Shown here: positions 27,595 through 52,638 of the stretch, in pieces
Numbering within the stretch: position 1 is the first letter of the stretch
Layout of the letters: every line of letters starts with the position of its first letter
DNA from: a virus
IMG/VR virus record: IMGVR_UViG_3300044801_000394
Span: 1 to 64,000 of that record
Length of the DNA: 64,000 bases
Reading direction: 5' to 3' (one strand)
The notes under the pieces: model-generated
Database searches by the model: none
What the model was told of the DNA's origin: nothing
What the model saw: only the letters and a program-made list of their open reading frames with translations
Position numbers and translations under genes: made by a program

Positions 27595-30500
27595 ATGTTA
27601 CAGCCTCCTTCAATATTATCCCCAATACAAAACTGGGAACCAACCTATAATTTTTCCTATTATACAGGTAATGTTATTCAACAGATCTCCGGGGACATTC
27701 CTGTACCAACAGGTCTCCTTCCTAATTTGTTACTTACTGTTGAATATAGTGTCCAACAGGGATTGTCTATAATTCCGCCACTTCCTGGAACTTATAGTCT
27801 GGCTGGGATAGTGGCAGGAGCAACCAATCCTTCAATAGACGATATAGCGTGGTCTTTTAATACTGAAGATTATATAACGTTGCAGGAAGGATCTATTGTA
27901 ACTATATGGTTTAAGGCTGTGGAGTTTACTAGCCAAATAGGTTCTGTAGGAAACGAAACAGACCAGAGTGACCCAGTAAGACTAGTAGTTAATGTTGTAA
28001 ATGTAGACGCTATCTCTGCGTCTGTTTCTGTACCAACTGGTGTTACAGTAAAAGAGTTTAGAGATCAAATGAAAATCCTTATTCCAACGGATGCTATTAT
28101 CATAAACGACAATAGCAGTTTTTTAGGGTGCAATTTCTATCTCAGCTTGTCCCCTGGAGGCGGTTCGTCAGGATATCAACTTATGAATGACTCATATGTA
28201 ATCAATCCCGACACGTCTGAGACACAAAATACTACTGTCGTAGATTCTACATATACTGATGAAGCCGGAGATCTTACGATCCAGACTACAAAGACTATAG
28301 CAAGACAAATAAACTATTATACGTTTACGGTCGATAAAGATGTTTTGAAAGCTATGGTAATTGCAGGAACTATACCTAATGTTTTCTTGTCTGATAACAC
28401 GACACTGAATGATGACATACAGTATTATTTCGTAACAACAGCAGCTGCCTATGACAACACTCTTACTCAGGCAGTAGAGAGTCCTTATTCTGTAGAGATT
28501 AATTCCTCGTTTATAAGATATCAAACTAATTTTCAGAGTCTTCCCGCACGAAGGAGACCCGACATCCTTTTGTCGATGGCCAAAAGAATCAACGCCAACA
28601 ACGATCAGATAAATCTTGTTTCTGGACAGGTAATCCGTGATCAAATAGATCCAGTTTCTGATATGTTCGAGAAGTTCTACATTGTTGAAGATTTCGTGTT
28701 CACTTGTGAGTCGATAGATAGCTTGATGCAGTTCGATGATGCAAACGGGGATGGAGTCAGTGACGATCCTACCACAAGTTTACAAAAACAGAAACTGGCA
28801 GATGCCCTTAATGTAACAGATCCAGTGGTGTTACAAGCTTTGATAGATGAACAATTTGATAAATCAGCGGCGAATTTTAATCTCTTAAGAAAACCGGCAA
28901 CGTCTTCGACAGGATCTGTGACTTTTTTTATGACTGTTCGTACAACAACAGATCTGTTGGTACAGAACAATACGATAGTCCAGTATCCTGGGAATACAAG
29001 CCTAAATATGAGCCCTGTAAATTTTAATGTGCAAGGTAATTACATATTTGAGGCAGCTACTATAGACAACTACTATAATGCATCTCTAAAGAGATACGAG
29101 ATAAAAGCCGCTATAATGGCTGTCAATTTAGGGTCTGCAGGAAATCTTCCTGCTGGAGTTATTACTGTGGTAACAAACCTGGATCCAAGGATTCAGGTAG
29201 AAAACGATGTTCCGACAAACTATGGCTCAGACCAGGAATCAAACCAGAGCCTTGGAAACCGCATTAAGCTGGCACGGTCTTCTTTTGATTCAGGGACTAG
29301 CCCAGGATATTTGTCTACGGTTTACGAAGTCCCTGGAGTTTTGGAAGTTAAAGGACAATTTGGCGGAGACCCTCTTATGACTCGTGATTATGATGCTGAT
29401 AGCAAACAGCATATAGGAGGAAAGGTAGATCTTTATATACGTGGTTCTAATATCAGCCAAGTAGTAGATCAGCTGGCTTTCAAATTCGAGTATCCTTCTG
29501 ATGTTGATGGCAACAAAATTGAGGAAAGATTTTATGTCACAGATGCTCGGGATTTCAGGATAAAAACTACAAATCCTAAAGTCACAAGCGATAGTCCCAT
29601 AGTCATTGTAAACAAGGTAAGAAATGCCACCAGGAACAAAGAATATGATCTGGCTGGATATCAAACTCTTTCTGATACTATAATTCTAAACAGCTCCAGT
29701 CAGCTTAATATTGCAATAGGTATGGCAACATTAGATGTTATTGAAGTCGACTATGTCTATAGGAGCTCCAATGTTCTTGTTCTTGAGAATCAACCTATTT
29801 TGGATGTCATATCCGTACAGGATAAAGACGGGAATGTGATAGATGCTTCAAAGTATCAAACAGTACAAATAGAGGATCCTCTAAAAACAGGAAGATCAAC
29901 TATTGCAAAGGACGGTATAGAGTTTCTTTTTACTTCCAGTAACGACATAGCAGAATCTATGAGCATATCCGATGAGCAGCATTTGGTTAGATTAAACAGC
30001 CCTGCAGAGTTAAATTTTAAAGGAGTCGATCTAGATTCTATTGTGGTGAAATCTTCAGACAACTCGATAGTCTATAGAAACACCATAGACTATACGGTAA
30101 CTCTAGGGACTCAGACAGATTATACGTACATAAACTTAGTATCTAATGGTATGATAAGATCAGGTGATACCATAAGTGTGGACTATACAGCAAGCACTAA
30201 TCTATTTGTGACGTATACATATAACAGCCTGATGTCACAGGTACAGGATAAAGTAAACATAATGAAACACGCATGTGCTGATGCTATCGTTAAAGAAGCA
30301 GTCGAAAACCCAATCGATTTGAGTTTTGATATAGAACGAGATCTAAGCGTGGCAAATTCCAATGACGGGACAACAACCGACGATGAAAATAGATTAAGAT
30401 CTAAAATACAAACAGCTATATACAACGCTGTAGCTGGGTTGAAGATGGGCGAGACACTTACACAAGGATATCTTGTAAAAACTATCCTCTCTGTTCAAGG

Positions 30501-30963
30501 AGTAGAATCCGTAACTACTCCTTTCTCCATAATGATGAAAAGGCAAGGATCCTTTATACCCCTGGACGATTTAGGATATTTATCCTTTGAAGTATTTCAG
30601 AGGAACGGAGAAGAAGGAATAACGTCGTATAAGAGCATAACATCAGTTTTGACTTATTCCACTACGGATAACGGAGGACCAGCAAATCTTTTTAGAGCCG
30701 TCTATGAGGATATGATCGAACTAGAGTTAGTGGACGATCCAACATTGGTAGCCAAGCAAGCAGGAAGCGCATATATAATGGCAGATGGAAGCATAGTCGT
30801 CAGCACTACAGATGGGAGACCTCCCCAGGCTAAGCATTACACGGCAGCATATTATGTTTCTTATCCTGTAGGAGTAACAGAGGTCGGAGATATTAAGACC
30901 TCTGAAATAGAATATCTTGTTGCAGACAGTATCAGCTTCAAAGGTATAGACTTTACCAACTAA
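27595..30963 (+). CDS. baseplate wedge protein, gpJ/gp6-like
   Basis: 1122 residues. The region at about 545-585 has the baseplate J signature: an acidic start (DQESNQSLGNRIKLA), then SSFDSGTSPGYLSTVYEVPG and VLEVKG. About 870-960 is helical and fits the later part of such proteins. The family forms the inner ring of the baseplate wedges that changes shape to start sheath contraction. The N-terminal 500 residues and some 300 C-terminal residues exceed the size of a minimal gpJ, as in large phages. It follows the gp25-like gene by one base, the usual partner order. Confidence 0.82.
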   Translation: MLQPPSILSPIQNWEPTYNFSYYTGNVIQQISGDIPVPTGLLPNLLLTVEYSVQQGLSIIPPLPGTYSLAGIVAGATNPSIDDIAWSFNTEDYITLQEGSIVTIWFKAVEFTSQIGSVGNETDQSDPVRLVVNVVNVDAISASVSVPTGVTVKEFRDQMKILIPTDAIIINDNSSFLGCNFYLSLSPGGGSSGYQLMNDSYVINPDTSETQNTTVVDSTYTDEAGDLTIQTTKTIARQINYYTFTVDKDVLKAMVIAGTIPNVFLSDNTTLNDDIQYYFVTTAAAYDNTLTQAVESPYSVEINSSFIRYQTNFQSLPARRRPDILLSMAKRINANNDQINLVSGQVIRDQIDPVSDMFEKFYIVEDFVFTCESIDSLMQFDDANGDGVSDDPTTSLQKQKLADALNVTDPVVLQALIDEQFDKSAANFNLLRKPATSSTGSVTFFMTVRTTTDLLVQNNTIVQYPGNTSLNMSPVNFNVQGNYIFEAATIDNYYNASLKRYEIKAAIMAVNLGSAGNLPAGVITVVTNLDPRIQVENDVPTNYGSDQESNQSLGNRIKLARSSFDSGTSPGYLSTVYEVPGVLEVKGQFGGDPLMTRDYDADSKQHIGGKVDLYIRGSNISQVVDQLAFKFEYPSDVDGNKIEERFYVTDARDFRIKTTNPKVTSDSPIVIVNKVRNATRNKEYDLAGYQTLSDTIILNSSSQLNIAIGMATLDVIEVDYVYRSSNVLVLENQPILDVISVQDKDGNVIDASKYQTVQIEDPLKTGRSTIAKDGIEFLFTSSNDIAESMSISDEQHLVRLNSPAELNFKGVDLDSIVVKSSDNSIVYRNTIDYTVTLGTQTDYTYINLVSNGMIRSGDTISVDYTASTNLFVTYTYNSLMSQVQDKVNIMKHACADAIVKEAVENPIDLSFDIERDLSVANSNDGTTTDDENRLRSKIQTAIYNAVAGLKMGETLTQGYLVKTILSVQGVESVTTPFSIMMKRQGSFIPLDDLGYLSFEVFQRNGEEGITSYKSITSVLTYSTTDNGGPANLFRAVYEDMIELELVDDPTLVAKQAGSAYIMADGSIVVSTTDGRPPQAKHYTAAYYVSYPVGVTEVGDIKTSEIEYLVADSISFKGIDFTN

Positions 30964-30978: not shown

Positions 30979-33900
30979 ATGGCACAAAATGTAGAAAAAA
31001 ATGTATCCAATATCTATCAGGATCTTCAGTACTCCTATGATAGAGTTTCTTTTAATCCTGGAGTCCCTCCTTTAGCCAACGAGCTGAACGACCTTCAGGA
31101 ATTTCAAGAGATCCTAACTCAAAAGTCTACGGCAGGTTTTCCTTCTGGATGGCTTAGCTATAGGCCTTTCTATACCTCCAAAGATTTGTCCAATAGTTTC
31201 TACACACAAGATCCAGCTGAACCAAAGCCGGAAGTAGCACTTGTTAATGGCTGGCCTATTTATGTTACGAATACAAATACTTCTTTAAGGCATGTCAATC
31301 AGATAAATCTTAGTGACTTTGAATTGAAATCTGGATCGAGGGTTGATGGTGTATTCCTGGAAGTGTGGAGATCTTTAATCACTCCACAAGATTCTAATGT
31401 CATGGCAAAGCCCCAGAATACTAGTCAAATAAGTACCGTCTATAGCATAGAGATGTTTGATGAAAGTCTGGGATGGGCTGTAGGAGATAAGGGCACCATA
31501 TTAAAGACGGTGGACGGGGGAGATAACTGGGTCACTAAAGATACCCCTATCGCGGTTAAATTCAATAGAGTTAAATTTTACAACCAGAGCATAGGATATG
31601 CCATAGCAGAAAAGGGATACATCATAAAGACTCTTAATGGTGGAGAGTCCTGGTTTGTTGTTTCGACAACAGTAAACGACAATCTGAATGATTTATCCAT
31701 AATAAATCAGAACACGATTATAGCGGTAGGGGATAACGGAACGATATTAAAAACTTTGGACGGAACTAATTTTGAGCTCATTCTAAGTACCTCTGGTACT
31801 ACTGCTAATTTAAATGGTATCTTTTTCTATGATGACACGATAGGTTGGATCGTAGGAGATGCTGGGACTCTGCTTATTACAAAAGATAGAGGTCAAACAT
31901 GGCAGACTCAGGTTATTTTGGATACCAAGGCTTCAGCTATAGTTACAACCGATCTAACTTCCGTGGCATTTTTCAATTTGAATGATGGTATAGTAATAGG
32001 AAAAGACGGAACAATCCTGAAAACCTCTGATAGTGGGTATCATTTTGTAGGCATGTCTGACATGGTCTGGAACAGCACTACTAGCACATACAATACTTTG
32101 GATCAAATATATCCGAATACTAGTACCGATCTAAATAGGATTTTCATTGATGAACATTTCGCCAATAATTTCAGTATTAGTTTATACGGTCCATCAGCGA
32201 CTCTATTCAGCAATGCAAGTTATAATGTGACCCCTGATTATTTTACTTTGCAGTTTAGAAGCATAGCAGACAGTGTAGATCACTGTAAACAGTTTTCTTT
32301 AACACAGTATCCTTCGGCAGAAGCACTGACTAAAGCAGTTAATAGTTACTCTGAAGTATATGATATCCGTTCTGGTAAGATGGCACAAGTGTTTCAGATG
32401 ACAGCATCCTATGCCACCACTATAGCTGGTTTTGTACCAACTAGTGGGGCTATTTCCAGCTCCGGAACCACTACTATATCGTTTTCTATCGAAGATACAG
32501 CCTGGATCGTGGGAAATGATGGTTTAGTACTGAAGACCAGTAACAGCGGGTCAAGATGGGATATTATACCGAATCTATTAGGTTTTGATTTGTATGATGC
32601 CGCTTTTGTAAGTGACACTCTTGGGTGGGTATCAGGATCTGATGGCAGTATCCTGTTCTATAATCCACCAAACAGTTTTGTTGCTCAGAATACAGATTTA
32701 CCTTTAAAATCAAAAGGAAGAATATACCCCGAAGGTAACATCTTGTCTCAAGCTGAGAATTTCCTTGATGATGATATCATAGATCCTCAAGTGGGTGTGG
32801 AAACATCTGACAGGATACAAATCCAATACAGTATAAGAGTAGCAACTGGCATAGACCCGTTTACGTATCCTGAATCTGGCCTGGGAGCAGAATACATAAA
32901 TAGTTTAGGTCCAAACGATAATAATAGCGATGCTGGATCATATACTTTCTCTAATATGGGGCAGGAAAATGGGGACTATGGTCTTTGGAAAGCACACTGC
33001 AGAAACACATATGATGGTTGGGTCTGGGCAATACCTATGTTTATTGTTACGAGAAGGAACTCCTCTCCTTTTGATCCGGATACCAACATAAACGGTTCCA
33101 CAGATTATTCCCTTAATGCTATAAGACCAGATGAGCTGACTTATGAAGAGATAGACGATTCAGAAATAACTGACCTTAGAAAGAAGATCAACATCCAGTC
33201 TTACACAGCTTTAATGGAAAAGAATTTTGATAAGCTTATGGGTAACAGGTTGAGAACCAAGCTTAGTACTAGGGATGAAAAGGGTACTCAGTATGGGACA
33301 TCAATCCTTCTCGCGGACACATTTATCGGCACAGATCCGTTGAATAATCTTGTGAGTGGATTGGTAACTTCAGAAGCGGCACTAACAGAGGATGTTAAAG
33401 AATTAGATCCCAACAATGTGACACCTCTTACTACTGCTGATTTTACTTTTGGCCCTGTGGTCGATGGTATATACTTGACCGATCCCTCTTATCATATAGT
33501 AAGATCTAAAATTAACGGAGTTGAGACTTCAAAAGTGATTCCAGGATCTTTCGAGGGGCTTGGGACTAACACTTTGATATTTGATATTGGTCAGTATTCT
33601 CCAGATCCTGGAGAGACCTATGTCATGCACGCATGGAGGATAGACTACACAAAAGACGGGTTAAGTCAAGTACCGAACGAACCACTCGGTGTTAAGTACG
33701 TGCCTGATGTAGAAGATAATAGTGTTTTCTATAGAGGCATCAATGCGAATGTGGAAAATCAAAATATAGAATACCTGACAGAGAGAGTCCCGGGATATCA
33801 GGATTACACGGATTTTTATTCTGCCAAAAATATAGGGAATAATCAGGATGATATAGACCTGTATCAAAGTACTGATAATTATGTGGAGAGCTCTTTAGAC

Positions 33901-35349
33901 TACACAAGATCTTTAACGAAGTTTAAGGGACAACAGTTTAAAGGATCACTTCTGGAATACCATTACTTTTTACAGACGACAGACTATATCAATCAGCTTG
34001 TTATCCCAAAAAACATTAACAATTATACTGTTTTTAATGTTAAGAAAGTAGCAGATGCAAATAGCGGGGCAGCATATCTTATTTCAACAGGCTATGATAA
34101 CACAAGTGCCCCTAGTACTACTTTGTGGAGCGAAAGCCCTATAAGTGGAGGCTCTTATGATAATAGCACTATAACCATAAATATTGACCCTGCTTTTACT
34201 ATTCCAAAATCGGCTGTAGTTGAAGTTATTCTTGAAGTAGTGCCATCCATTACTCCTGTTTCAACTACATTAGGTTTCACTCAGACTAATATAGGACCGA
34301 ACATCCAGGCGTACAGAGCTCCTTTTACCGCAAACTTCAACGTTGGATCAAAAGGAGTAGACGGTCTTTATAAATCAGCTTTGTTTGTTACTCCTGTAAC
34401 AGCAGCGTCTAAATCTATTACTGTTGATTTAACCAATCCTGGTTCAAATAATGATGGGAGTTTAACCAACGGAACGATCCTAGGTATTAGCTCTTTTGTA
34501 ACTAAAGAAGTTACATACCAATCATATGTGTGGTATAGTACTGATGGACTATTTTTCTACGCGATACCCATTAGCAGTGTAGAGAATTTAGGAACAAGTT
34601 CTGTTACCATCTATTTTGATAATAGGGTGACTATTACTGGGGGGACTATTTATGTCCCTATGCTGGTACAACAGACCCAATTCACAGGAGCTACGGCTAC
34701 ATCCGAGGCATATGTGTTTTACAAGTTCAGACCGTATCAGGCATTGGATAATCTTCCAACAGAACTGACAGTTGAAGTATTGACAAGTTCTGATTTCCTG
34801 TATGTGTCCAATCTTGGTACAGGAGGTAGCAACAAAATCAAAAAGGATCCTTACGAGAATCCTATAGATCATATACCTGTTAATGATGCTAGTTTTGTTA
34901 ATGATAACATCTTCACGAACATAGATGACTTGGACTTCATAGACATTAGTGTGGATACCGGTTTGGTTAAGATACCGGCTTTTCTCTCTCGTAAATTAGG
35001 AGAAGATATTACTCTGTCAAAGCCTAACAACATAGGGGACAGACTTGGAAGAGCTTTTTATACAGCATGTGATGATACGTTCAAGTATCAATCTGAAGGG
35101 TTGGTGCATGCAGTACCGAGAAAAGTTTTCTTCCCTGTTTTGGCTCGAGTAAGATCAGATTTGATAAGCCCTGTTGTTCGTGGAGAGATTGTCCTTATCG
35201 TCTTTTCAAAGATGTTCAAGGCTCGTACGGAGAACATGTCAGGGATGTTTGAGGATGATGATACAGAGTACACACCAGGTTACTTTGAAAGTGCGGATAC
35301 AGCTATAGCCGTTTACAGACTGTTAAATTATCCGACCGTCAGGATGTAA
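30979..35349 (+). CDS. tail protein with inserted Ycf48/BNR-like beta-propeller
   Basis: 1456 residues. The N-terminal 135 and the part from about 580 on align by eye with the protein at 52639: SGWL, NGWPI, FLEVWRSL, RIQIQYSIRV and DGWVWAIPMF each have a counterpart in the same order. Between them lies about 440 residues with seven blade motifs of the form VGDxGTILKTxDGG (near 166, 208, 249, 291, 338, 510 and 550), as in Ycf48/BNR propellers. A spacer of about 150 residues sits between blades five and six and itself carries a YPSAEALTKAVNS module like those of the giant protein. Likely a baseplate or fibre-attachment protein with a receptor- or partner-binding propeller. Confidence 0.75.
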   Translation: MAQNVEKNVSNIYQDLQYSYDRVSFNPGVPPLANELNDLQEFQEILTQKSTAGFPSGWLSYRPFYTSKDLSNSFYTQDPAEPKPEVALVNGWPIYVTNTNTSLRHVNQINLSDFELKSGSRVDGVFLEVWRSLITPQDSNVMAKPQNTSQISTVYSIEMFDESLGWAVGDKGTILKTVDGGDNWVTKDTPIAVKFNRVKFYNQSIGYAIAEKGYIIKTLNGGESWFVVSTTVNDNLNDLSIINQNTIIAVGDNGTILKTLDGTNFELILSTSGTTANLNGIFFYDDTIGWIVGDAGTLLITKDRGQTWQTQVILDTKASAIVTTDLTSVAFFNLNDGIVIGKDGTILKTSDSGYHFVGMSDMVWNSTTSTYNTLDQIYPNTSTDLNRIFIDEHFANNFSISLYGPSATLFSNASYNVTPDYFTLQFRSIADSVDHCKQFSLTQYPSAEALTKAVNSYSEVYDIRSGKMAQVFQMTASYATTIAGFVPTSGAISSSGTTTISFSIEDTAWIVGNDGLVLKTSNSGSRWDIIPNLLGFDLYDAAFVSDTLGWVSGSDGSILFYNPPNSFVAQNTDLPLKSKGRIYPEGNILSQAENFLDDDIIDPQVGVETSDRIQIQYSIRVATGIDPFTYPESGLGAEYINSLGPNDNNSDAGSYTFSNMGQENGDYGLWKAHCRNTYDGWVWAIPMFIVTRRNSSPFDPDTNINGSTDYSLNAIRPDELTYEEIDDSEITDLRKKINIQSYTALMEKNFDKLMGNRLRTKLSTRDEKGTQYGTSILLADTFIGTDPLNNLVSGLVTSEAALTEDVKELDPNNVTPLTTADFTFGPVVDGIYLTDPSYHIVRSKINGVETSKVIPGSFEGLGTNTLIFDIGQYSPDPGETYVMHAWRIDYTKDGLSQVPNEPLGVKYVPDVEDNSVFYRGINANVENQNIEYLTERVPGYQDYTDFYSAKNIGNNQDDIDLYQSTDNYVESSLDYTRSLTKFKGQQFKGSLLEYHYFLQTTDYINQLVIPKNINNYTVFNVKKVADANSGAAYLISTGYDNTSAPSTTLWSESPISGGSYDNSTITINIDPAFTIPKSAVVEVILEVVPSITPVSTTLGFTQTNIGPNIQAYRAPFTANFNVGSKGVDGLYKSALFVTPVTAASKSITVDLTNPGSNNDGSLTNGTILGISSFVTKEVTYQSYVWYSTDGLFFYAIPISSVENLGTSSVTIYFDNRVTITGGTIYVPMLVQQTQFTGATATSEAYVFYKFRPYQALDNLPTELTVEVLTSSDFLYVSNLGTGGSNKIKKDPYENPIDHIPVNDASFVNDNIFTNIDDLDFIDISVDTGLVKIPAFLSRKLGEDITLSKPNNIGDRLGRAFYTACDDTFKYQSEGLVHAVPRKVFFPVLARVRSDLISPVVRGEIVLIVFSKMFKARTENMSGMFEDDDTEYTPGYFESADTAIAVYRLLNYPTVRM

Positions 35350-35353
35350 TCAC

Positions 35354-36550
35354 ATGGACCTGCAGTTTTCTAAGAGTAATACTATTAGTGTCTATTACTC
35401 AGCCGTAGGTCTCACAGGTCCTAGCGGTTTTAGCAGGATTACGGGAGAAAAACAGTATTCAGTGGATCTTGGTACGATCCTGTATAATAATTCTTTTTTG
35501 AAGTTGAACAGTTTGGTTATCCCGCTAAAAGATCAGATTTTTTTTGATCCTGTTGCGGATAAAAATAAGTATGCAGCAGTAAATGTTTACTATGATGCGG
35601 AATATGGGCAGTTTGTTTTTGACAGGGTAGCTGTTTCCGATAAATATATAAGAAAATACACGGCTGCAGCTATTCCGAATGTCATACCAATAGCCCAGTT
35701 TATAATAAGGCAGGCACAGGAAAGCTTTGAGGTTATAAGCTATAATGAGTACTCTCAGATGTCGACGTTTACTATAACGGACGATTTTGAGCAGGGAGAC
35801 ACAGGGGTAGATCTTTTACAAGGGGATACAGGACCCTATGGTCCTACCGGACTGATAGGGGATATGGGGTATACAGGACTGCCGGGAGATCCTGGGTTTA
35901 TGGGTCTTACTGGTGTATCTTTACCAGGTAGTGCAGGAGAACAAGGAGGGACGGGTGTTTATGTGGACACAGATATGCAACTTTATCTCAAGTTTAAGAC
36001 GGATGATCGAAGACAAACAGATTATTCCCCGTATGAAAGAGATTGTTTTTATACTTGGACAGGTATATATCAAGATGGGACTCAGAAATCTTATTATTTA
36101 GTAGAACCGGGTCCTGTAGATAACTGTCACAATGTTGTATTTAACGGGGAATTTGCTGCGTATCGAAGGAATGAGTTCCTTGAGTTTGGAAGGGAAACCG
36201 GGACTATCTGTGCTTGGATAAGAACAACAGATAAACCAAGAGCCGATTTCACTTATACTTACAAAGGGATAACGGGGATCTACGGGATTACTGGGGCTCC
36301 GATCTATGGAGTTACCGGGGCTTACAGAGTGTCTTTTAAGGATACATCAGGATATTCGCCTACATCGTGGAAGTGGATAATAAACTATGATCCTTCTTAT
36401 GAGGGGGAAGACCACGGTATAGTTTATACTATGCAAAATGTGTCCTATACGTTTCCCGGTATTACTGGGACTTATATAGTAAAGTTGGTAGCAGGGAATC
36501 TTAACGGGTCTTCGGAAATAGTTCATTTTATTAACTTACCTTTACCTTAA
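35354..36550 (+). CDS. collagen-stalk fibre protein with LamG-like and PKD-like parts
   Basis: 398 residues. About 1-147 form a beta domain that resembles the N-termini of the proteins at 39888 and 40546. About 148-201 are collagen-like Gly-X-Y repeats rich in Thr-Gly (GDTGPYGPTGLIGDMGYTGL). Next comes a partial concanavalin/LamG-like piece (MQLYLKFK ... FLEFGRETGTICAWIRT), then a PKD-like domain at the end (YRVSFKDTSGYSPTSWKW ... TYIVKLVAGNLNG). The LamG part is shorter than a full domain, so module shuffling is likely. Presumed role: fibre that binds host surface sugars. Confidence 0.7.
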   Translation: MDLQFSKSNTISVYYSAVGLTGPSGFSRITGEKQYSVDLGTILYNNSFLKLNSLVIPLKDQIFFDPVADKNKYAAVNVYYDAEYGQFVFDRVAVSDKYIRKYTAAAIPNVIPIAQFIIRQAQESFEVISYNEYSQMSTFTITDDFEQGDTGVDLLQGDTGPYGPTGLIGDMGYTGLPGDPGFMGLTGVSLPGSAGEQGGTGVYVDTDMQLYLKFKTDDRRQTDYSPYERDCFYTWTGIYQDGTQKSYYLVEPGPVDNCHNVVFNGEFAAYRRNEFLEFGRETGTICAWIRTTDKPRADFTYTYKGITGIYGITGAPIYGVTGAYRVSFKDTSGYSPTSWKWIINYDPSYEGEDHGIVYTMQNVSYTFPGITGTYIVKLVAGNLNGSSEIVHFINLPLP

Positions 36551-36576
36551 ATATAAAAATCAAAAGGAGCTTTATT

Positions 36577-36996
36577 ATGGCCTCACAAGTTCGTTTAGCC
36601 AATGAAACGGTATCAATTGAAGCTGCTGCTCTCAACGCTCAATTCAACGGAGCAATTTTACAGATTATGGACGGTATCCAACCTGTTAATGGGGACACAG
36701 GACCGATTGGAAACACATTAGTTGGGTATACTTTGCCAAATCCTTGTTTTATAACGGGCATAAACGGAGTGCTTATGTCAGACACTATAACACCCGAAGC
36801 TGCACAGAATTCGGGTACAGCCACATGGTTCAGGATTACGAGTCATATAGGCTTTGGACCGTACTATCCTCCTCTTATGGACGGAAGTGTTGGTGTGTCA
36901 GGCTCTAACTGTGATTTAATTCTTAATAGTACGGCAATTATAGATTCGGCAATAGTTACTTTAACGTCATTCACGTACACTGTTACCAAACAATAA
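36577..36996 (+). CDS. small phage tail-fibre-region beta protein
   Basis: 139 residues. The pattern (an N-terminal helix, then AILQIMDGIQPVNGDTGPIG, a GTATWFRITSHIGF strand and a C-terminal LNSTAIIDSAIVTLTSFTYT) matches a small protein common in tail-fibre regions of many phages. Its role is not established; a tip or capsid decoration has been supposed for relatives. Good AAGGAG site at proper spacing. It stands alone between larger fibre genes. Confidence 0.6.
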   Translation: MASQVRLANETVSIEAAALNAQFNGAILQIMDGIQPVNGDTGPIGNTLVGYTLPNPCFITGINGVLMSDTITPEAAQNSGTATWFRITSHIGFGPYYPPLMDGSVGVSGSNCDLILNSTAIIDSAIVTLTSFTYTVTKQ

Positions 36997-37026
36997 TTTT
37001 GTTGTATTTAGAATAAGGTAACGTAT

Positions 37027-38232
37027 ATGGGATATATAGGATATATAGATACTTTTCAGCCAAAACAATCTGTTAATTTGTCAGGCTATACTTTTTATGG
37101 CTCGATAAATATTTTGCAGAAAAAGCAGGTTGCAAGTATATCTGGTACAAATTTTTATGGATCAGTAGCTGTGTTTCAGAAAAAGCAGGCTACAAGTATA
37201 TCCGGTACAAATTTTTATGGAGCAGTAAATACCTCGCAGAAAAAGCAATCCACCAATATATCAGCAGTAATGAGTCCGCCAGCTGCTTCTACTCTCGTAT
37301 CCCCACTAAACGGGGCAACAGGAGTTTTTAGATCTCTAACGTTTACGTGGAACTCGTCAGCCGGAGCCGCAACATATGAACTTCAGATATCTACAGAAAA
37401 TACTTTTACGACCGGAGTTGTGTACGATAAAAGCGGAATCATTACAACTTCTCAACAGGTGACGGGGTTATCAGCTAGTACACAGTATTACTGGAGAGTT
37501 GGTGCCACTAATGGGGCTGGTACGACCTGGTCAACTTCGTGGCCGTGGAATTTCACAACGGGGTATGTAGATTTTTCTGCTGTTGTTGCAGGACATCCAC
37601 CAAACAGTCCTCATGAAGGAGACGGATCCGTTCAGTTTGGTTATACGGGTGCATATACTTCTATTACTTCCTATGTTTGGAATTATGGAGATGGTAGTAG
37701 AGCAAGCTACATTTTTAATCCTCCACCTTCTCACGTATATCCATCTTCCAACGTATATTCAGTCTCTTTAACAGTTAGCAACGGTATGTACTCGGATACC
37801 ATTATAAAGTATAACTACATAATAATAAACGAATTACAGGCTTCATCAGAAAGCATAATCATAGAGTCTTTTGAAAATAGCAGCAGCAGAGATTGGAAAT
37901 TTTATGTAGATGATATGGGACATCTTTCTTTTGATATTGGTGCAGATACCTTCAGGTCTACTAATCCAGTCGTTAATTTGGGGGTATGGACTTTAGTCGA
38001 GTTTCATCCTGGTAGAAATAAAATGTATGTTGCATCAGTAGGCAACGGAAGAAAAGAAGTACCTTGTTATTTGTCCACCACGGGAAGTACAGGCATGCAT
38101 ATGGAAGACAAAATATATATCGCTGAAAATTCGAATATGAAGATAGACGAACTTAAAGTTACAAAAAAAGATTTGAATTTAGACTCCTATTTTAGATCTC
38201 TCCAAGGTACTGTATACTACCTTCCTAAATAA
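37027..38232 (+). CDS. fibre protein: 20-residue repeats, FN3, PKD, LamG-like
   Basis: 401 residues. About 10-85 are four 20-residue repeats (core KKQxxSISGTNFYGSV). About 87-180 form a fibronectin type III domain (TLVSPLNGATGVFRSLTFTW ... TQYYWRVGATNGAG). About 180-270 form a PKD domain with the signature VWNYGDGS and HVYPSSNVYSVSLTVS. About 275-400 resemble a LamG-type jelly roll (WKFYVDDMGHLSFDIG, VVNLGVWTLVEFHPGRNKMY). All four module types are common in surface-binding proteins. A virion fibre or adhesion role is inferred. No enzyme motif is seen. Confidence 0.72.
   Translation: MGYIGYIDTFQPKQSVNLSGYTFYGSINILQKKQVASISGTNFYGSVAVFQKKQATSISGTNFYGAVNTSQKKQSTNISAVMSPPAASTLVSPLNGATGVFRSLTFTWNSSAGAATYELQISTENTFTTGVVYDKSGIITTSQQVTGLSASTQYYWRVGATNGAGTTWSTSWPWNFTTGYVDFSAVVAGHPPNSPHEGDGSVQFGYTGAYTSITSYVWNYGDGSRASYIFNPPPSHVYPSSNVYSVSLTVSNGMYSDTIIKYNYIIINELQASSESIIIESFENSSSRDWKFYVDDMGHLSFDIGADTFRSTNPVVNLGVWTLVEFHPGRNKMYVASVGNGRKEVPCYLSTTGSTGMHMEDKIYIAENSNMKIDELKVTKKDLNLDSYFRSLQGTVYYLPK
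37057..37262 (+). repeat. four tandem 60-base direct repeats
   Basis: Units start at 37057, 37117, 37177 and 37237 with exact 60-base spacing. Units two and three are almost identical (CAGAAAAAGCAGG, then GTACAAATTTTTATGG); the first and fourth are more diverged. They encode the repeated N-terminal part of the fibre gene at 37027. The high DNA identity points to recent duplication, so copy number may vary between relatives. Confidence 0.9.
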
Positions 38233-38285
38233 CAGTTTCCCGCATAAGCTATTAATATTTTCCGTCTAATGTAGTAGGTATATCC

Positions 38286-38295
38286 TATAAAAGGG
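38286..38295 (+). promoter_or_regulatory. TATAAAAGGG motif in a 73-base gap
   Basis: The gap 38233-38305 is one of the larger ones in the window. It ends with TATAAAAGGG eleven bases before the ATG at 38306. The same string, with one more G, occurs before the gene at 264. The G run may simply serve as ribosome site; a phage promoter is an alternative. In an AT-rich genome chance is possible. Confidence 0.25.
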
Positions 38296-38305
38296 CATAA
38301 GCATA

Positions 38306-39382
38306 ATGTTTTTAAATCCTCCAGGGTATATAGGTTTTAATGCAGATGTTCAAGCCGGATCAGCGCCGCTTACTGTGACGTTTAGTCCAGCTATTTATGT
38401 CCGTCTTAAACCTGTTTCTTATGTGTGGATTTTTGGAGATGGTTTTAAAAGTTCAAAGAAAAATCCAACTCATACATATACTGTAGGGGGAGATTTTGAT
38501 GTAGAACTGATAGTTACTTTTGAAGACGGATCACAAAGTGATCTAATACAAACTCCCTATATAAAAATAGTTAGACTAATAGTATCTGTTTTAGAACAAA
38601 GTGGGCAGGCTCCTTTTACCACTAAATTTTATGTAATTCCAGATCTACCAGAAAACGTTGCCATTACCTCTTATGATTGGAATTTTTCCGATGGGTCTGC
38701 CCATGCCACCGGTGTGGATATTGTTCATACCTTCATAACAAAAGGGGAGTATTCTACCGACATAGTAGGAGGTCTAACAGGGACAGGAACAGGGGGCTTA
38801 ACAGGGGTAGAGAACTTAACAGAGGTAGACAGTAGCATAGAAATTTCTGCAACCCAACCCTCTATAAAATACAGCAATATGTTTTCGTGCCTGGGATGGA
38901 TCAAAAAGCCTCTTGTTGATGATCAAAGTACTTTAATTTGTTTGGCGATAGCAGATCCTTACAACAATGTAATAGGAGTAGATACATCTATAAAATTTGA
39001 AATAATGAGAGACGGATTCGACTACAGACTGTTACATTTGGGGTCTAAGTCAAAGCTAATAGGTAAAACTTTAACAATAGTTTTAAATGACGGTACCTGG
39101 CATTGTGTAGCCTATGAGTGTGATAATAGCGGGACGATGACCTTCTATGTAGATGGAGTATCTTTACCTGCAGAAGATGGTATAGGTACTGATGGAATAG
39201 CTTTTAATAAAGCACACTCAGTACACGAAAGAATGGGCGGTGGCCCGGTGTGGGCTCCTTATCTATACGAACTCAGTCAAAGTATCTATTTGTATAATTG
39301 GAGATATGGAAAGAATTTTAATCTAGGGCAAAGTTGGATCAATTCCTTAGTAGGAATAGATAAAACTTATCTGAATATCTAA
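38306..39382 (+). CDS. fibre protein: two PKD domains plus LamG-like domain
   Basis: 358 residues. A first PKD domain at about 8-90 shows SAPLTVTFSPA, YVWIFGDGFKSSKKNPTHTY and YIKIV. A second at about 92-165 shows QAPFTTKFYVIPDL, YDWNFSDGS and VHTFITKGEYST. A short Gly/Thr-rich linker (GGLTGTGTGGLTG) joins them to a LamG-like jelly roll at about 180-355 with DGTWHCVAYECDNSGTMTFY and VDGVSLP, the typical LamG core. Such domains bind carbohydrate or calcium and act as spacers. Presumably a receptor-recognising fibre part. Confidence 0.75.
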   Translation: MFLNPPGYIGFNADVQAGSAPLTVTFSPAIYVRLKPVSYVWIFGDGFKSSKKNPTHTYTVGGDFDVELIVTFEDGSQSDLIQTPYIKIVRLIVSVLEQSGQAPFTTKFYVIPDLPENVAITSYDWNFSDGSAHATGVDIVHTFITKGEYSTDIVGGLTGTGTGGLTGVENLTEVDSSIEISATQPSIKYSNMFSCLGWIKKPLVDDQSTLICLAIADPYNNVIGVDTSIKFEIMRDGFDYRLLHLGSKSKLIGKTLTIVLNDGTWHCVAYECDNSGTMTFYVDGVSLPAEDGIGTDGIAFNKAHSVHERMGGGPVWAPYLYELSQSIYLYNWRYGKNFNLGQSWINSLVGIDKTYLNI

Positions 39383-39394
39383 ATAGGATTTAAA

Positions 39395-39877
39395 ATGTCG
39401 ATTATAAATCACACTAATTTAATAGCAAATTTTTTTGTTCTACCTTACTTCTCGTTGAGCATTTCAACGAGCCCAAGAGAGGGAAGGATACCCCTTACAG
39501 TGGTTATTACTGGTGTTTCCAGTAGTCAGGTGAATACTTGGAATTGGTTTATAAACGGTATCCAACAAATAGAAACTACTCAGCAAATTAATAGAACTTT
39601 CACACAAAAGGGACAATATCTATTACAACTAGTGGCGACGGATATTTATTCTCAAGGACCTTTGACTGTGTATAACTCTGTTGTGGCCACAAGTAACCTC
39701 GCCGTTTTAGATAGCGCTTTAGACGATATGGATCCAAATAGAGTAGTTGAGTTAGCAGGTTCGGCGGATTTCCTTTATGATGGAAAAGGGATAGGAGTAA
39801 AAACTCCTATCTACAGCACTAGTTTCAATAATGCAGGGTTTTCACACGCTAGTGGTCCAGATATAATATTCAGCTAA
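39395..39877 (+). CDS. single-PKD fibre protein
   Basis: 160 residues. About 25-105 form one PKD-like domain (SPREGRIPLTVVITGVSS, NTWNWFINGI, RTFTQKGQYLLQLVATD). The last 55 residues are a short tail ending in a beta-like segment and have no second domain. It looks like a reduced version of the preceding protein, with the LamG domain missing. It may be a remnant or a separate spacer subunit. Confidence 0.6.
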   Translation: MSIINHTNLIANFFVLPYFSLSISTSPREGRIPLTVVITGVSSSQVNTWNWFINGIQQIETTQQINRTFTQKGQYLLQLVATDIYSQGPLTVYNSVVATSNLAVLDSALDDMDPNRVVELAGSADFLYDGKGIGVKTPIYSTSFNNAGFSHASGPDIIFS

Positions 39878-39887
39878 AGAGAAGAAG

Positions 39888-40532
39888 ATGCTTAAGACTA
39901 AAAACAATACTGTACGAGCCAATGTTCAGCAAAACATAACAGATACTTCTGTTGTAATAAGCTCAGGGTCTCTCGTATTTGATAACAAGTGGATAGACTA
40001 TCCAGGCACTGTTTTTAATGTTCAGGATTATATAAATTCCCAAATAAGTGCTGGACGAACACGATTTTTTAACGGGCTTAATTATGCAGTCTGTCTTATA
40101 GTTGGTGTCGGTATCACTGGGGAAATAACGGTAGTGGAAGGGGCACAAGTCCTCTATACTACTTTAGCATCTGTTCCGGTACCTCCAACTTTTTCTATTA
40201 TACCTTTAATTGGTATAGTTCTGATCCAAGACGGCACTTCCGACGTGAATGCTGGAGTAAAGCCACTAAAAAATAACAATGTAATTTATTTCTCTGGAAT
40301 GGGAAACGTAATAGATAAGAATATAAAAGGTACCGATGGAGCAACCGGTTTGTTAGGAGTACTAGGATCTAGTGGTGAAACAGGGCTAATTGGAGAAGAC
40401 GGTATCACCGGTTTAAACGGTATCATGGGAACCACAGGTCCTATGGGTTTTGGTATTATAGGAGCACAAGGAGCCCAGGGGATGACGGGCATAAATTGGG
40501 ATATACATATTTTGTTTGATCATTTAATCTAA
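39888..40532 (+). CDS. collagen-tailed fibre protein
   Basis: 214 residues. About 1-146 form a beta domain (SLVFDNKWIDYPGTVFNVQD, then IIPLIGIVLIQDGTSDVNAG) that resembles the N-termini of the genes at 40546 and, more weakly, 35354. About 147-202 are collagen-like Gly-X-Y triplets (GATGLLGVLGSSGETGLIGE). The last 12 residues (NWDIHILFDHLI) form a small cap. The collagen-like part probably trimerises into a stalk; the N-terminal domain probably anchors it or forms the trimer head. Confidence 0.68.
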   Translation: MLKTKNNTVRANVQQNITDTSVVISSGSLVFDNKWIDYPGTVFNVQDYINSQISAGRTRFFNGLNYAVCLIVGVGITGEITVVEGAQVLYTTLASVPVPPTFSIIPLIGIVLIQDGTSDVNAGVKPLKNNNVIYFSGMGNVIDKNIKGTDGATGLLGVLGSSGETGLIGEDGITGLNGIMGTTGPMGFGIIGAQGAQGMTGINWDIHILFDHLI

Positions 40533-40545
40533 AACGACATATCTA

Positions 40546-41562
40546 ATGGGACTTATTACTAGAAAAAATCAGCCTTTTACCACGGTATCAAAAAATAGTG
40601 CGATACAGGGTGATAATATTGTCTTCATCAAGGGCGGATCCACTATAATAGGGGACACCTGGGTCCAGTTTAATGATATAAGAGTATACATCAAAGATCT
40701 GGTAGATAGTTTTATTGCAAGCTCAGCTAGAAGAGTTTTCAATGTTAAAAACGGAGTCTTATATGTACTTATTACAGTCGATAAAGACAGCAGACTAGAA
40801 GTAGTACCTAGTGTATCTCTTAATCAGACAGTTGCAGGTAATGTAAAAGTTTTCTCCTCGTTGTCTGGTAGGTTGCCCCTTATTTTGGTGCAACTAGTTC
40901 AGGACGGGTCAGATAATTTATCCAGTTACCTTCCAATTACAAGTTCCAGTTATGAAGTTTTTAAAGGATATGGAAATTTTACTTTATCTGGTAATCAAGG
41001 AGAAACAGGTCCTCAAGGAGATACAGGTTTAGAGGGTTTAGAAGGTCTCTCAGGTATTACTGGATTAATTGGTTTTGAGGCAGCTGAGTCTAATATAGTT
41101 CAAGATAGTGTAGAAGAAGAAAATGACATTTGGATATGTGTGGTGGGGTATAGCGGTGTTATTCAGAACACAGTTAATTATTCAATTACTATTGGACCAG
41201 AAGGTCTTAGAGGTGCTACGGGGATTGTAGGCGATACTGGGATACAAGGTTCTCTTGGAGTATCTATAGCGAGATTTGTTCATAACAGACCTGTAGATCC
41301 TGTAGCAGATTTTTCTGGGTATCCTTTGACTGGAGTAGTTGGTTTATCAGGAGTCCAGTTTACAAATTTGTCTACAGGATCCTGGGATAGTGCATTATGG
41401 GTTTTTGGAGATGGCAATAGCTTTATAGACAATAGTCAGGGGATTACTGGTCCTGTTCATTATTATGGCGAGACAGGGACTTATGATGTAATTCTCTATT
41501 TATATAGTATTGATTATGAGGTTCATAAAACTAAATACGACTACATAACGGTGACTAGTTAA
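40546..41562 (+). CDS. collagen-stalk fibre protein with C-terminal PKD
   Basis: 338 residues. The N-terminal 145 match the layout of the previous protein (VQFNDIRVYIKDLVDSFI, then LPLILVQLVQDGSDN), so this is a paralogue. Two collagen-like runs follow (GNQGETGPQGDTGLEGLEGL near 148; GPEGLRGATGIVGDTG near 220) separated by a 45-residue beta piece. A PKD domain closes the protein (FTNLSTGSWDSALWVFGDG, HYYGETGTYDVILYLYS). Same stalk, different end from its neighbour: an example of module exchange. Confidence 0.7.
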   Translation: MGLITRKNQPFTTVSKNSAIQGDNIVFIKGGSTIIGDTWVQFNDIRVYIKDLVDSFIASSARRVFNVKNGVLYVLITVDKDSRLEVVPSVSLNQTVAGNVKVFSSLSGRLPLILVQLVQDGSDNLSSYLPITSSSYEVFKGYGNFTLSGNQGETGPQGDTGLEGLEGLSGITGLIGFEAAESNIVQDSVEEENDIWICVVGYSGVIQNTVNYSITIGPEGLRGATGIVGDTGIQGSLGVSIARFVHNRPVDPVADFSGYPLTGVVGLSGVQFTNLSTGSWDSALWVFGDGNSFIDNSQGITGPVHYYGETGTYDVILYLYSIDYEVHKTKYDYITVTS

Positions 41563-42231: not shown

Positions 42232-42903
42232 GTGATAAAACTAGTGACAAGGTATAAAGATAGAAGACCATTTTTAGAAAGAACTATACATACATGGTTA
42301 AGAAATCCATTTTATCAAGAAATAATAATTGTTGATTGGTCGTCAAGTGATGATATTGTTCCATATCTGAAAACCTTGAATGATTCTCGATTGACAGTAT
42401 TAAGAGTTAAAGGACAGAAATATATAGATCGCGGCGCTGCTTGGAATGTTGGGATAAAATATGCAGACAGTACATGGATTCATGCAGTTGATTGTGATGT
42501 GATGGTAAGACCAACAATTTATGAAAATGTTGATTTCTCAAATCTAAATACTTTTTATATGAGTAAGGAGTGCAGTGCTGTTCGTGGTTCATGTCTTTTC
42601 CCTAAATATGCTTGGAGACTGGTCAATGGATATATAGAGGGTTTGAAATCTTTTGGAGCGGAAGATCCATTGTTTTATGAAAATCTTGAATTGATAGGAT
42701 TAAAAGAGAATAATATATTTACAGCAAGAGATTTATTTCATATTACTCACGGTGATTACATTCGACAGCAAAATCATGAAGTAATATATAAAGGTAGTAA
42801 CTGGATGGGTGATGCACACAGAACAAATTGGCGTTTAGCACATGAATTAAATGATCCTAAACGACAGTTGAAAAAATATGAGACAGAAATAATTAAATCA
42901 TGA
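42232..42903 (+). CDS. family 2-type glycosyltransferase (GT-A)
   Basis: 223 residues. The GT-A nucleotide-sugar fold is shown by IIIVDWSSSDD (31-41), AAWNVGIKYA (69-78) and the metal-binding DCD (87-89) after a hydrophobic strand. GAEDPLFYE (142-150) matches the acceptor-side acidic motif of this group. H170 and H173 may bind metal. It would transfer a sugar from a nucleotide donor; donor and acceptor are unknown. The start is GTG with AGG eight bases upstream. Its ATGA stop overlaps the next start, so the two are coupled. It ends with TGA, not used by any backbone gene here. Confidence 0.82.
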   Translation: MIKLVTRYKDRRPFLERTIHTWLRNPFYQEIIIVDWSSSDDIVPYLKTLNDSRLTVLRVKGQKYIDRGAAWNVGIKYADSTWIHAVDCDVMVRPTIYENVDFSNLNTFYMSKECSAVRGSCLFPKYAWRLVNGYIEGLKSFGAEDPLFYENLELIGLKENNIFTARDLFHITHGDYIRQQNHEVIYKGSNWMGDAHRTNWRLAHELNDPKRQLKKYETEIIKS

Positions 42904-46695: not shown

Positions 46696-49600
46696 ATGGC
46701 TGATCTCTCTACCTCTTCTTATAATCAACAGGAGAGGGTCGGAAGAAAAAGATTCGAATCAGGAATCGAGTTTGAAAAGATTGTCCTCAATCTTGCTCGA
46801 ACGATTCAGGATCGTTTACTCCAAAATTTACCTAGCAACTATCCTCAGGATCCAAATACAAATCTGGCTGAGATTTTCAGGGCTATCTCCGAAGAGTTCG
46901 CACGGCTTCAATCTTCTATTTCCGATGTAAACGAGGATCAGTATCATGTTAGTATTAAAGCAGAGTATCTCTATCAAATCTTGGGGGATACTTTGTTTCT
47001 GGACAACAAAGCTATAAACTATAACATCTCCGATGCTGCTTATAGAGATTTCTTGATAAATGTGAGAAATGCCTACTACGGTGGAAGCCGAAAAGACAAC
47101 ATTGAACAGTCTGTTTCGGATATTTTAGGAATACCTGTAACCATAAAAGAGCTCTATTTAGACCTCAGAGAAGAAAACACTTCCGTTACAATTAAAGATA
47201 CTCATAAGATGTTTTGTGACATCCTTATGGACTATGTATCCTCTACCTCTGTAGGTCTGTTGCTGGAAAATCTCAAATTCTTTTTGGATCTTATCAAACC
47301 TGCCCACACCCTATATGACACTCGTTTGATCTGGACAGATACCATACAGACACAAAATAATGCCTGTACACCAGTTTATGCTGAGACAGGAGCTCTATCC
47401 GAGATAATCTATGGCGTAGATAAAATCGACATGGTTACGTCAGTAGACGATAGACTATATAGGATCACCGGAGCATATATAGATCCTAAAGAAAGTTGGA
47501 CAACTGGTATTGTATCTTCCATAGACGAAACAAAAGGAATACTCTATTTAGAAGATAAAACTATCCTAGTTTGTACAGATACCTCTAAACTCTATGAAAG
47601 AGCGTACGAAGACGCTGGCGTTACTGGTTTCTATACCGCTTCAGATTCAACTATCTTGTTGGGATCTCTAAACCCTGGAGACGATATCTTCTATTATGCC
47701 ACTCAAGATGGCCCAAATTCTTCATCGGTTATAACAAGTGATTGGCTCTACACCGGGATAGTAGGGTTAACTGCTGGGATCGATACCAGCAATGAAACAA
47801 TAACTCTGACCTCAGGGCAAATCCTTGTCTACAACAAGGATGTTTTAGTATACACAAGGGATAAAAACGGAGAGTATAGAATCTTTGTATCAGGCCTTAC
47901 TGGAGGACAAGAGATAGCTTTTAGAGGAACAGAGTATTCACAGCTTCTTCAATTCTACAACGTGCCAGAAGCGGTGAAAGAAAACCCTTATAAACAGTTC
48001 GATCCTGAAGTCATGGAAACTCCGTACTTCCAGGGTAACGTTAAAAAAGTCCTAGAAACACGAGAAGAAGGTCTTACTGGCTTATCCGTAGGACCTCACG
48101 TTATAGTTGAAGATGGAATAGTTAAAGTAGTTGATGTAGAGAGTAAATTCTATAAGAGAGAAAACTCAGTAGCATGTAAACCATTCAAGGTACACAGATA
48201 CAATCTTTTTATAGATGAAGTATTTAAGGATCAGTTTTCAATAGAAGAACCTGATCCAGAGATAACAGAGGATGAAGCTTTACTGGTTTTTGGAAACATG
48301 CCAGGAGAGTCTGGATTAGGCCTGACTGGTTTGAATTATAACATAACAATAAACGAAACTAGTCAACTAGAGGAGACTTCCGAAGAGCCTACAGTCCAAA
48401 GTATAGGTGTAACCGGCCATACAGAAATGTGCGACAGGAAAGCCGAGTGCCAATTAGTCCCTTACTATGAGGATACGCGAAAGTACTATGATTTTCCAGA
48501 CATACAGCTTACCTCTGGTTTCATAACTACAGTTATTCTACCGGTCCCTTATGGTGTAACAGGACTGGAACTTCCAGCTTATTTCACGATATCTAATGAT
48601 CCTAATAGCTATGTAATGCCATGTCTTCCTATTTTAAACAGTGATGGAGAACCAGCAGAACCAGAAGATTTAATAGTCTATATAAATGGATTACAGGTTT
48701 TAGACGCCGTAAACAGTGTAAAGCCTTGGACTGGCGAAGTAGATCTTAATTTTTTACCTCCAGCTAATTCTAAAGTCAGGGTAGACTATTACTATTCAAA
48801 CAGATATCCTGCCCCACAAACATACATAGAGCATGTAGGTCAGACTTTATCATCTCAACGTCTACAGTGGCCGTATCCGATAGTCGAGACGGGACTATAT
48901 GGAAACTCTCAGGATTTCCAAGTAGACAAATATCCAATTTTGAATCAACGAGGTCAATTAGCGAATCCTTGTGATATAATGACCTCTATAGGAAGTCTCG
49001 ATGTTACTGGGAACATTATTGGTGTCACAGGCTGTGGGATAACAGGTTTGGATAAAAGTGTCCTTATATCAGACTCTTCAGTTACGGGAATACACGCAGG
49101 GGATACCTTAGTAATAGATGCTGAAAGCTATTTCAATACTACTCTCATATATACCACAACAGGAATAATAGGCTATAACTATATAGTACTAAATAAAAAT
49201 TTTGGAGTACCAATAGATCCTGCAGGATTCCCGTACGAATCAGTTAGCTTTACTGGTGCCCCTACAGGAACAGTAGAGTGTGTAAGACCTATCCTAGGAC
49301 ATATCCACCTAACAGGAGCTCCAGCCTTAGGATCTTTTGTTAAGTTCGACTATTACTACAACGTTTATAACAGGACTTATACCTTTGTCCCTGATGTTGG
49401 AGTCACTGGTCCCTACATGAATCAGGGCTATGCCTCTGATACGTTTTATGGAAACTACAATGGATTTACCCTAGTACCAGATGAAGGTTTTACTGGATAT
49501 CAGAATCCTATTTTTGATTACAACCAAGTAGAAAAAATAGGGTACCGTTACAGGGTTTTCAACCTTTCAAACAGTTCCGTTTTGAATTCAAAAGATACCT

Positions 49601-51063: not shown

Positions 51064-51639
51064 ATGTTTAAAGAGTTTTTGGAAAAAGGCCTGAAGCAAC
51101 TTCTTCGGGTGGTTACTGGAATAAAATATGAGGAAGAGACTAAGAAAATGAAGGGTGAGCTTTTCTTGTTCCTTAGGGAAAAAGGGAAGCTGATCAAGGT
51201 CATACACCAGTCTAATATCATAGTCAATACTGCGTCTGTTCTTATAGCCCGTCTACTCAAGGACAGTCACGAACCTACTGCAGGTATATCCTATTTGGCT
51301 GTAGGAAGCGGTGACGATGCCTGGGACCCTTATGATCCTCCTGCTCCTACGACCTCACAAACTATGTTAGAAAGTGAATTCTTCAGAAAGAACATATCAA
51401 TTGCCACGTTTATAGATCCTCAGACAGCAGAGCCCACTGAAAACGATACAAACATCGTAGACTATGCCACTACTTTCTCGGAAGCAGAGGCTGTTGGACC
51501 AATCATGGAGCTAGCTTTATTTGGTGGGGATGCTGATTCGACATATGGGACTGGTACAATGGTAAACTGGAGAACATTCCCGGTGATAAACAAGACAAAT
51601 GCGATGACTTTGACTATTATTTTCAGGATTACGGCTTAA
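51064..51639 (+). CDS. conserved phage tail protein
   Basis: 191 residues of a type found next to baseplate and fibre genes in many myophages: SNIIVNTASVLIARLLKD, then ISYLAVGSGDDAWDPYDPPA, SQTMLESEFFRKNISIATFI, and closing TMVNWRTFPVINKTNAMTLT. It is beta-rich after a basic helical start (FKEFLEKGLKQLLRVV). It is thought to be a small structural part of tail or fibre; its exact role is unknown to me. An AAGGAG site directly after a hairpin precedes it. Confidence 0.65.
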   Translation: MFKEFLEKGLKQLLRVVTGIKYEEETKKMKGELFLFLREKGKLIKVIHQSNIIVNTASVLIARLLKDSHEPTAGISYLAVGSGDDAWDPYDPPAPTTSQTMLESEFFRKNISIATFIDPQTAEPTENDTNIVDYATTFSEAEAVGPIMELALFGGDADSTYGTGTMVNWRTFPVINKTNAMTLTIIFRITA

Positions 51640-52626: not shown

Positions 52627-52638
52627 TTGGGATATAAA

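Follow-up and report, generated by a model that had tools for sequence, protein, structure and literature searches.

The stretch of DNA analysed here, hereafter the window, covers 64,000 bases of an uncultured virus record that is 69,954 bases long (IMGVR_UViG_3300044801_000394), and codes for two large, related proteins. Like the neighboring baseplate genes and the fiber-like cluster described below, their genes lie on the + strand. Gene A (30979..35349; 1456 residues) is an intact open frame that harbors an inserted β-propeller, and gene B (52639..55974; 1111 residues) is an insert-free paralogue with ~10 residues at the corresponding site. Gene B starts with an ATG at 52639, in a frame that is open from a TTG at 52627, and ends at 55974.

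Modular structure of the A and B proteins

Pieces of the A protein were compared with B by Smith-Waterman alignment and scored against 100 shuffles. Both flanks of the insert resemble B (z=14.5 for residues 1-137 and z=21.1 for residues 578-735), and the remainder of the protein (residues 735-1456) gives z=5.7, whereas the insert itself (residues 137-578) shows no similarity to B (z=0.3). BLASTP of A against B yielded E=3e-14 for A 582-788 and E=9e-8 for A 19-138. Since the similarity extends over both flanks and disappears within residues 137-578, the insertion is real and well placed and, judged by their sequences, A and B are paralogues.

A preliminary description of this DNA had proposed that the landmarks of the two proteins are collinear over most of their length. 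The flanks are indeed significantly collinear, and their alignment reveals more than isolated motifs, but reliable similarity is confined to A 19-137 and ~582-790 (~330 residues in total), and the two proteins end in C-terminal modules whose sequences are unrelated. For the segment between FLEVW and RIQIQY, given there as ~440 extra residues in A versus ~40 residues in B, the length in B was borne out. From FLEVW to the next common motif, YGN, the distance is ~450 residues in A versus ~10 in B.

Three modules of A can be delineated in addition to the insert. The N module (residues 1-137; 30979..31389), with an ELNxLQ helix followed by VNGWPI and FLEVW, is common to A, B and the start of DUF4815 proteins. 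The post-insert module (residues 581-770; 32719..33288), marked by YPEGN, RIQIQY, DGWVWAIPMF, RPD and DLR in this order, is common to A and B. The C-terminal module (residues 1151-1456; 34429..35346) is specific to A and appears in at most one of 37 other proteins of the family.

The inserted propeller

The insert (residues 138-580; 31390..32718) contains seven GTILKT-type motifs, the same number of blade motifs (VGDxGTILKT type) as originally described, and there are none elsewhere in A; in 2000 shuffles the mean was 0.03 and the maximum 2. Pfam assigns PSII_BNR (PF14870) to A with 87.8 bits against a cut-off of 27 (E=1e-24) and finds no match to this family in B. The structure of A 1-789 was modelled with AlphaFold2 from a 34-sequence alignment. 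The mean pLDDT (predicted local distance difference test) score was 80, with ~90-95 over most of the blade residues, and the strand order, as determined by DSSP, is that of seven blades. In a Foldseek search of the PDB, Ycf48 occupied the top nine places (best E=2.4e-13), with a template modelling (TM) score, relative to the target, of 0.74 for 5ojr_C. Sequence searches of the PDB likewise retrieved Ycf48, at 1.5e-18 with the single sequence and at 1e-30 with a profile. The predicted fold, a seven-bladed Ycf48/BNR-type propeller formed by residues 138-580 apart from a domain nested among them (see below), is thus confirmed by modelling, as the preliminary description had surmised from the letters.

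Ycf48 and its relative HCF136 (PDB 2xbg, 5ojr) share the seven BNR blades with the insert and are its best match in both sequence and fold. Unlike them, the A propeller is inserted in a much larger phage protein, includes a nested domain in blade 6, has acidic blades (17 Lys and Arg versus 36 Asp and Glu residues) and shows no sign of a photosynthetic role. The analogy with photosystem assembly that was drawn earlier could not be upheld: PF14870 also occurs in non-photosynthetic bacteria (Caulobacter, Deinobacterium and Bacteroides served as controls), no link between the phage and a phototroph was found, and neither the surface of the propeller, which lacks conserved residues, nor its acidic blades support it. 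We therefore dropped a connection to photosynthesis or to cyanophages, and consider the match as one of fold alone.

Propellers of the BNR/Asp-box kind include sialidases and GH74 enzymes, and GH74 enzymes are among the Foldseek matches of the insert, such that the propeller might be viewed as a sialidase- or GH74-like glycan hydrolase which degrades the host capsule. We consider this very improbable, because conservation among 34 aligned propellers is almost confined to structural Gly, Trp or Thr residues, with no invariant polar cluster; in addition, the non-enzymatic Ycf48 ranks above the GH74 matches.

A nested domain in blade 6

The propeller does not account for the whole insert, ~110 residues of which (residues 393-502; 32155..32484) belong to another domain. 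In the AlphaFold2 model they follow strand a (385-391) of blade 6 and precede its strand b (507-512), so that, by the model, the nested domain sits in the propeller and the propeller in turn sits in A. The chain enters and exits on the d-a side of the propeller and the nested domain branches off from an a-b loop, which, as deduced from the DSSP strand order, belongs to the opposite face. The nested domain is therefore probably directed away from the scaffold.

Alignment of 21 propeller inserts distinguished two unrelated types of nested domain. Type X, with an SAEDLATAVN-like stretch, occurs in the window and in most of its relatives; type Y (PITKGDGxG ... VxVNG) is found in loci L030 and L034-L037. 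Neither type has a significant match in Pfam. In one of the type Y proteins (L036:7078-11487) a tandem pair of such domains is located within blade 6. Comparison of the window with its nearest relative, L005, shows 42% identity for the nested domain versus 68-87% for the other parts of A. The exchange of types X and Y is firm and, together with the divergence of the nested domain in the window, would suit a recognition tip. A recombinational replacement of the window's nested domain by an allele like those of L029 or L033 was also considered. The tree of nested domains, however, keeps the window with L005 and L019, on a long branch, in line with faster divergence, and a swap is unproven.

Relatives and states of the insertion site

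A profile of the post-insert module was used to search IMG/VR, whereby 116 relatives were found and 80 were kept. In full frames, one and the same site falls into three size classes: ~405-507 residues (the propeller), ~116-136 residues and 3-30 residues. Propeller-bearing A proteins are encoded by 25 other viral contigs, an outcome in keeping with the suggestion that other large phages be searched for the same insertion, and also by L100, a contig binned with an Altiarchaeales metagenome-assembled genome (MAG). The latter contig (WJJK01000053.1) carries a relative of A with 63% identity in the core, and a second contig of the same MAG (L104; WJJK01000004.1) carries a relative of B. Both are probably binned phage contigs, which provide a lead to the habitat; bins of phage contigs are poor evidence for the host.

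Among the named relatives, gp211 and gp420 of Bacillus phage G, gp247 of Tunturiibacter phage Tunturi_5 and a pair of proteins from LR745208, a genome of 485 kb, lack a propeller. Most of the 36 records searched contain exactly two family members. Phage G gp420 (L013:8195-14227) apparently possesses two successive N-module-like stretches, indicative of a duplication within the protein, and phage G gp423 is a third, short relative close to gp420. Two neighbors of Tunturi_5 gp247, gp246 and gp245 (L011:17283-26559), are annotated as 'regulator of chromosome condensation'; they were rejected as RCC1 propellers, as Pfam identifies Ig-like He_PIG repeats in them and no RCC1.

The intermediate class represents a separate lineage, in which the same loop of A carries an insert of ~125 residues (L015, L049, L050, L058, L063, L068, L072, L074, L076, L077, L083, L086, L088 and L094). 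Its local pLDDT is ~80-89 within a poor overall model. The insert shows weak sequence similarity to a domain of an Agrobacterium phage sheath protein (PDB 8fop, E=0.003; also 9hz7) and, as a further link to a phage sheath domain, a weak Foldseek match to 9rku (E=0.05). Homology between this insert and the nested domain of blade 6, suggested by similar 'ATAxNLAAAIN' stretches, is not claimed, with an hhalign probability of 5.6% over 21 columns.

Order of events

Core trees were calculated from 78 and 75 sequences after removal of the insert. The propeller proteins form one clade in both trees (support 100/100), and the proteins with the ~125-residue insert form another (98/95 in the 78-sequence tree and 100/99 in the 75-sequence tree), at the base of which are four insert-free A-type proteins (L060:2-2659, L131, L133 and L143). 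The trees do not separate the A and B groups cleanly and give weak support to the branching between them, such that the common C-terminus is the stronger argument for grouping the A proteins. This module is found in 44 of the 45 near-full-length A-type proteins, with or without an insert, and clearly in one of the 37 others; the B C-terminal module never occurs in A proteins. The four insert-free proteins were assigned to type A by the C-terminal module itself, and the insert-bearing ones were typed independently, 40 of the 41 having the module. Monophyly of all A proteins is not rejected by the approximately unbiased (AU) test (p-AU 0.33); for the two insert classes alone, p-AU is 0.10.

The simplest history would thus be an ancient A/B duplication, after which one and the same loop of A received an insert twice, independently, and the trees support a single gain of each insert after the duplication. 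The order of duplication and then domain insertion had been put forward in the preliminary description, and it agrees with the existence of insert-free A proteins, the C-terminal domain that is common to the A types and absent from B, and the single gain of the propeller. Alternatively, A and B may not be duplicates at all, if a common phage module had been fused independently to different C-termini; the unrelated C-terminal modules and the incomplete separation of the two groups in the core trees could be read in this manner. We find this scarcely credible, given that the N and post-insert modules flank the site in the same order in both proteins, that one A and one B are present in most of the sufficiently long records, and that A monophyly is not rejected.

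Baseplate neighborhood of gene A

Directly upstream of A is a gene for a Baseplate J-like wedge protein of the T4 gp6/BW2 type (27595..30963; Pfam Baseplate_J, 1.8e-13), which is conserved upstream of A in propeller-bearing loci. A cluster of collagen-repeat, PKD and laminin-G-like genes (35354..41562; Pfam and PHROG matches), which probably code for fibers or adhesins, lies between A and the gene for a candidate Mu gp48/gpI-like baseplate protein of the BW3 type (46696..50994; PHROG 1160, 4e-10; Pfam Mu gp48, 9e-4, below the cut-off). A putative BW3TFN-like connector of the T4 gp8/A511 gp105 type is encoded at 51064..51639 (Pfam PF25691, 4e-6, 27.3 bits versus a cut-off of 27), and its homologues adjoin A or B in relatives. 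BW3TFN proteins resemble T4 gp8 and connect the wedge to the fibers (PMC10811340). In the window, A directly follows the J gene, and a single gene separates the BW3TFN-like gene from B downstream of it.

Several other genes of this region deserve mention. The members of the collagen/PKD/laminin-G-like cluster are partly interrelated and vary among relatives. A glycosyltransferase (GT4, E=5e-27), which possibly glycosylates virion proteins, is encoded inside the tail module at 42900-43895. The 3616-residue protein at 12500-23350 has no Pfam match; its position and size make it a probable tape measure of a very long tail.

The gene order in LR745208 is J, gp48-like, BW3TFN-like and A. The corresponding order in Listeria phage A511 is gp103 (J), gp104 (BW3), gp105 (BW3TFN, 5e-69) and gp106 (DUF4815, PF16075; 2e-197). 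A hidden Markov model of the N module (A3) matched the start of A511 gp106 with E=8e-6 (14 A511 proteins as targets) and that of gp175 of cyanophage S-CAM9, itself a DUF4815 protein (7e-60), with E=3.5e-4 (three target proteins). The match of the gene order, combined with that of the N module, points to A being a baseplate scaffold of the A511 gp106 type. Like A, gp106 is large, peripheral and modular, with an N-terminal ELNxxQ module. Unlike the situation in these phages, A511 has a single gp106 gene rather than two paralogues, and gp106 bears C-terminal carbohydrate-binding module (CBM) folds in place of the internal propeller of A. In A511, gp106 trimers are the pyramids of a double-layered baseplate, one trimer oriented toward the capsid and one downward, and the upward pyramids turn toward the cell wall upon adsorption (PMC9863714, PMC11406892). 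The context thus favors a protein at the periphery of the baseplate, of a kind that makes contact with the cell wall, and we infer that A is part of the virion.

The neighborhood also bears on what the propeller may bind, and either a receptor or another tail protein, both initially proposed, would be plausible. In the latter case the propeller would be an internal docking platform, e.g., for the products of the downstream collagen/PKD fiber genes or for B, and would retain its partner on the baseplate or assist assembly, much as Ycf48 holds D1 while the photosystem is assembled. In favor of this view, propellers are well-known platforms for protein binding, the nearest relative with a solved structure is Ycf48, and L020, L031 and L032 resemble the window in that fiber-like genes directly follow A. 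On the other hand, the propeller is kept in L033, L034, L035 and L037, where the BW3-like gene follows A with no fiber cluster between them, which weakens the version with a neighboring fiber as partner. That a sister group has an unrelated domain in place of the nested one would be odd for a fixed internal contact, and such a contact would also have to do without conserved surface positions. Internal docking is the main alternative to host binding; we consider it possible, though rather doubtful.

Comparison with known phage propellers

Propellers in phage baseplates are already known. The seven-bladed propeller of phiKZ gp131C (PDB 4GBF) is reported to be located at the baseplate periphery of a large myophage (PMC4901313), a setting similar to that proposed for A, but it constitutes a C-terminal domain rather than a loop insertion. 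This protein is absent from the PDB sequence matches of the A propeller and from the top Foldseek matches listed. The receptor-binding protein (RBP) gp45 of Staphylococcus aureus phage phi11 contains a five-bladed propeller with an N-acetylglucosamine (GlcNAc)-sized cavity, and is a proposed binder of wall glycans (PMC4901313). As is proposed for A, its propeller is part of a baseplate-attached protein; unlike A, it is a homotrimeric RBP of a siphophage, with five blades and an unrelated scaffold.

Similar viral propellers in public collections include the 'baseplate wedge initiator' proteins of S-SSM7 and S-CAM9 and a photosystem-factor-like protein of an 'uncultured marine phage'. In S-CAM9, the gp7-like gp177 (L153:8888-20542; 3884 residues) exhibits approximately seven Ycf48-like blades near its C-terminus, and such blades in a gp7-like protein are also present in the marine Synechococcus phage records S-8S53, S-8S55 and S-8S56. 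As in A, approximately seven Ycf48-like blades are thus carried, in S-CAM9 and S-SSM7, by a baseplate protein encoded beside gp6. The gp177 of S-CAM9, a T4-like cyanophage, is nevertheless a different, gp7-like baseplate protein, and gp175, the DUF4815 protein of the same phage, has no propeller match; the propeller of gp177 is an independent acquisition. No paper describing a Ycf48-type propeller in a phage was found in the literature searched. As far as the analysis shows, what is new is the repeated use of one insertion site in a gp106-like scaffold that is itself duplicated, along with the ordered states of this site and the swapped nested domain.

Proposed role of the propeller

We give about even credence to the reading that A is a scaffold of the tail-fiber network and presents the propeller, together with its nested tip, for binding to the host surface. 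The N module would anchor A to the wedge, and the loop that follows the FLEVW strand would face outward and accept whole domains. The lineage to which this phage belongs gained a seven-bladed Ycf48-type propeller once, in this loop of A, and the small domain in blade 6 would act as its replaceable tip. Propeller and tip together would form a peripheral module that touches the host surface, be it a glycan or a surface protein, during or after adsorption; this role is proposed by analogy with the A511 gp106 pyramids and the propeller of the phi11 RBP.

Several observations weigh against host-surface display on such a scaffold. Support for the BW3TFN and Mu gp48 assignments is weak. At the Pfam cut-off DUF4815 was not called on A, B or the relatives scanned, unlike the full domain of A511 gp106, and A and B are therefore graded as DUF4815-like rather than as members; the likeness is drawn from ~50 N-terminal residues and the gene order. 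In pairs without the window, the identity of the nested domain approximates that of the blades (0.43 versus 0.44), such that its divergence is clear on the window's branch only, and the acceleration is, in these comparisons, specific to that branch. Among the 34 aligned propellers, moreover, no conserved surface residues were detected beyond the blade-structural Gly, Trp and Thr, and consequently no binding site on the propeller can be named.

The missing conserved surface would also suit a mechanical or decorative extension, which pads the pyramid layer and widens the baseplate with no specific ligand, as would the fact that the same loop received an unrelated ~125-residue domain in another lineage and nothing in a third. 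Yet, since the single gain, all sampled members of the clade have retained the propeller, even though identity over the region from the N to the post-insert module falls to ~36%, and we regard a purely decorative function as unlikely.

The reading of surface display can be extended, more tentatively, to the family. The fixed loop of the duplicated scaffold may be a reusable socket that was filled independently by unrelated domains in different phage lineages, the propeller bringing along a socket of its own in blade 6, likewise filled by unrelated domains; recognition would then change by exchange at these nested sockets, and the two paralogues might correspond to the two pyramids of a double-layered baseplate. 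If true, host recognition would evolve inside a core baseplate protein and not via the exchange of fiber tips.

The present analysis places a propeller with a nested tip on a putative core baseplate protein of large, uncultured phages that form a widespread group, and likens its insert-free copies to a named family. Phage baseplates would have acquired Ycf48-type propellers on at least two occasions, in unrelated proteins. The ordered states of the site (no insert, small insert, propeller, and propeller with a swapped tip) render it testable that scaffolds, beyond the fibers, may carry exchangeable recognition parts.

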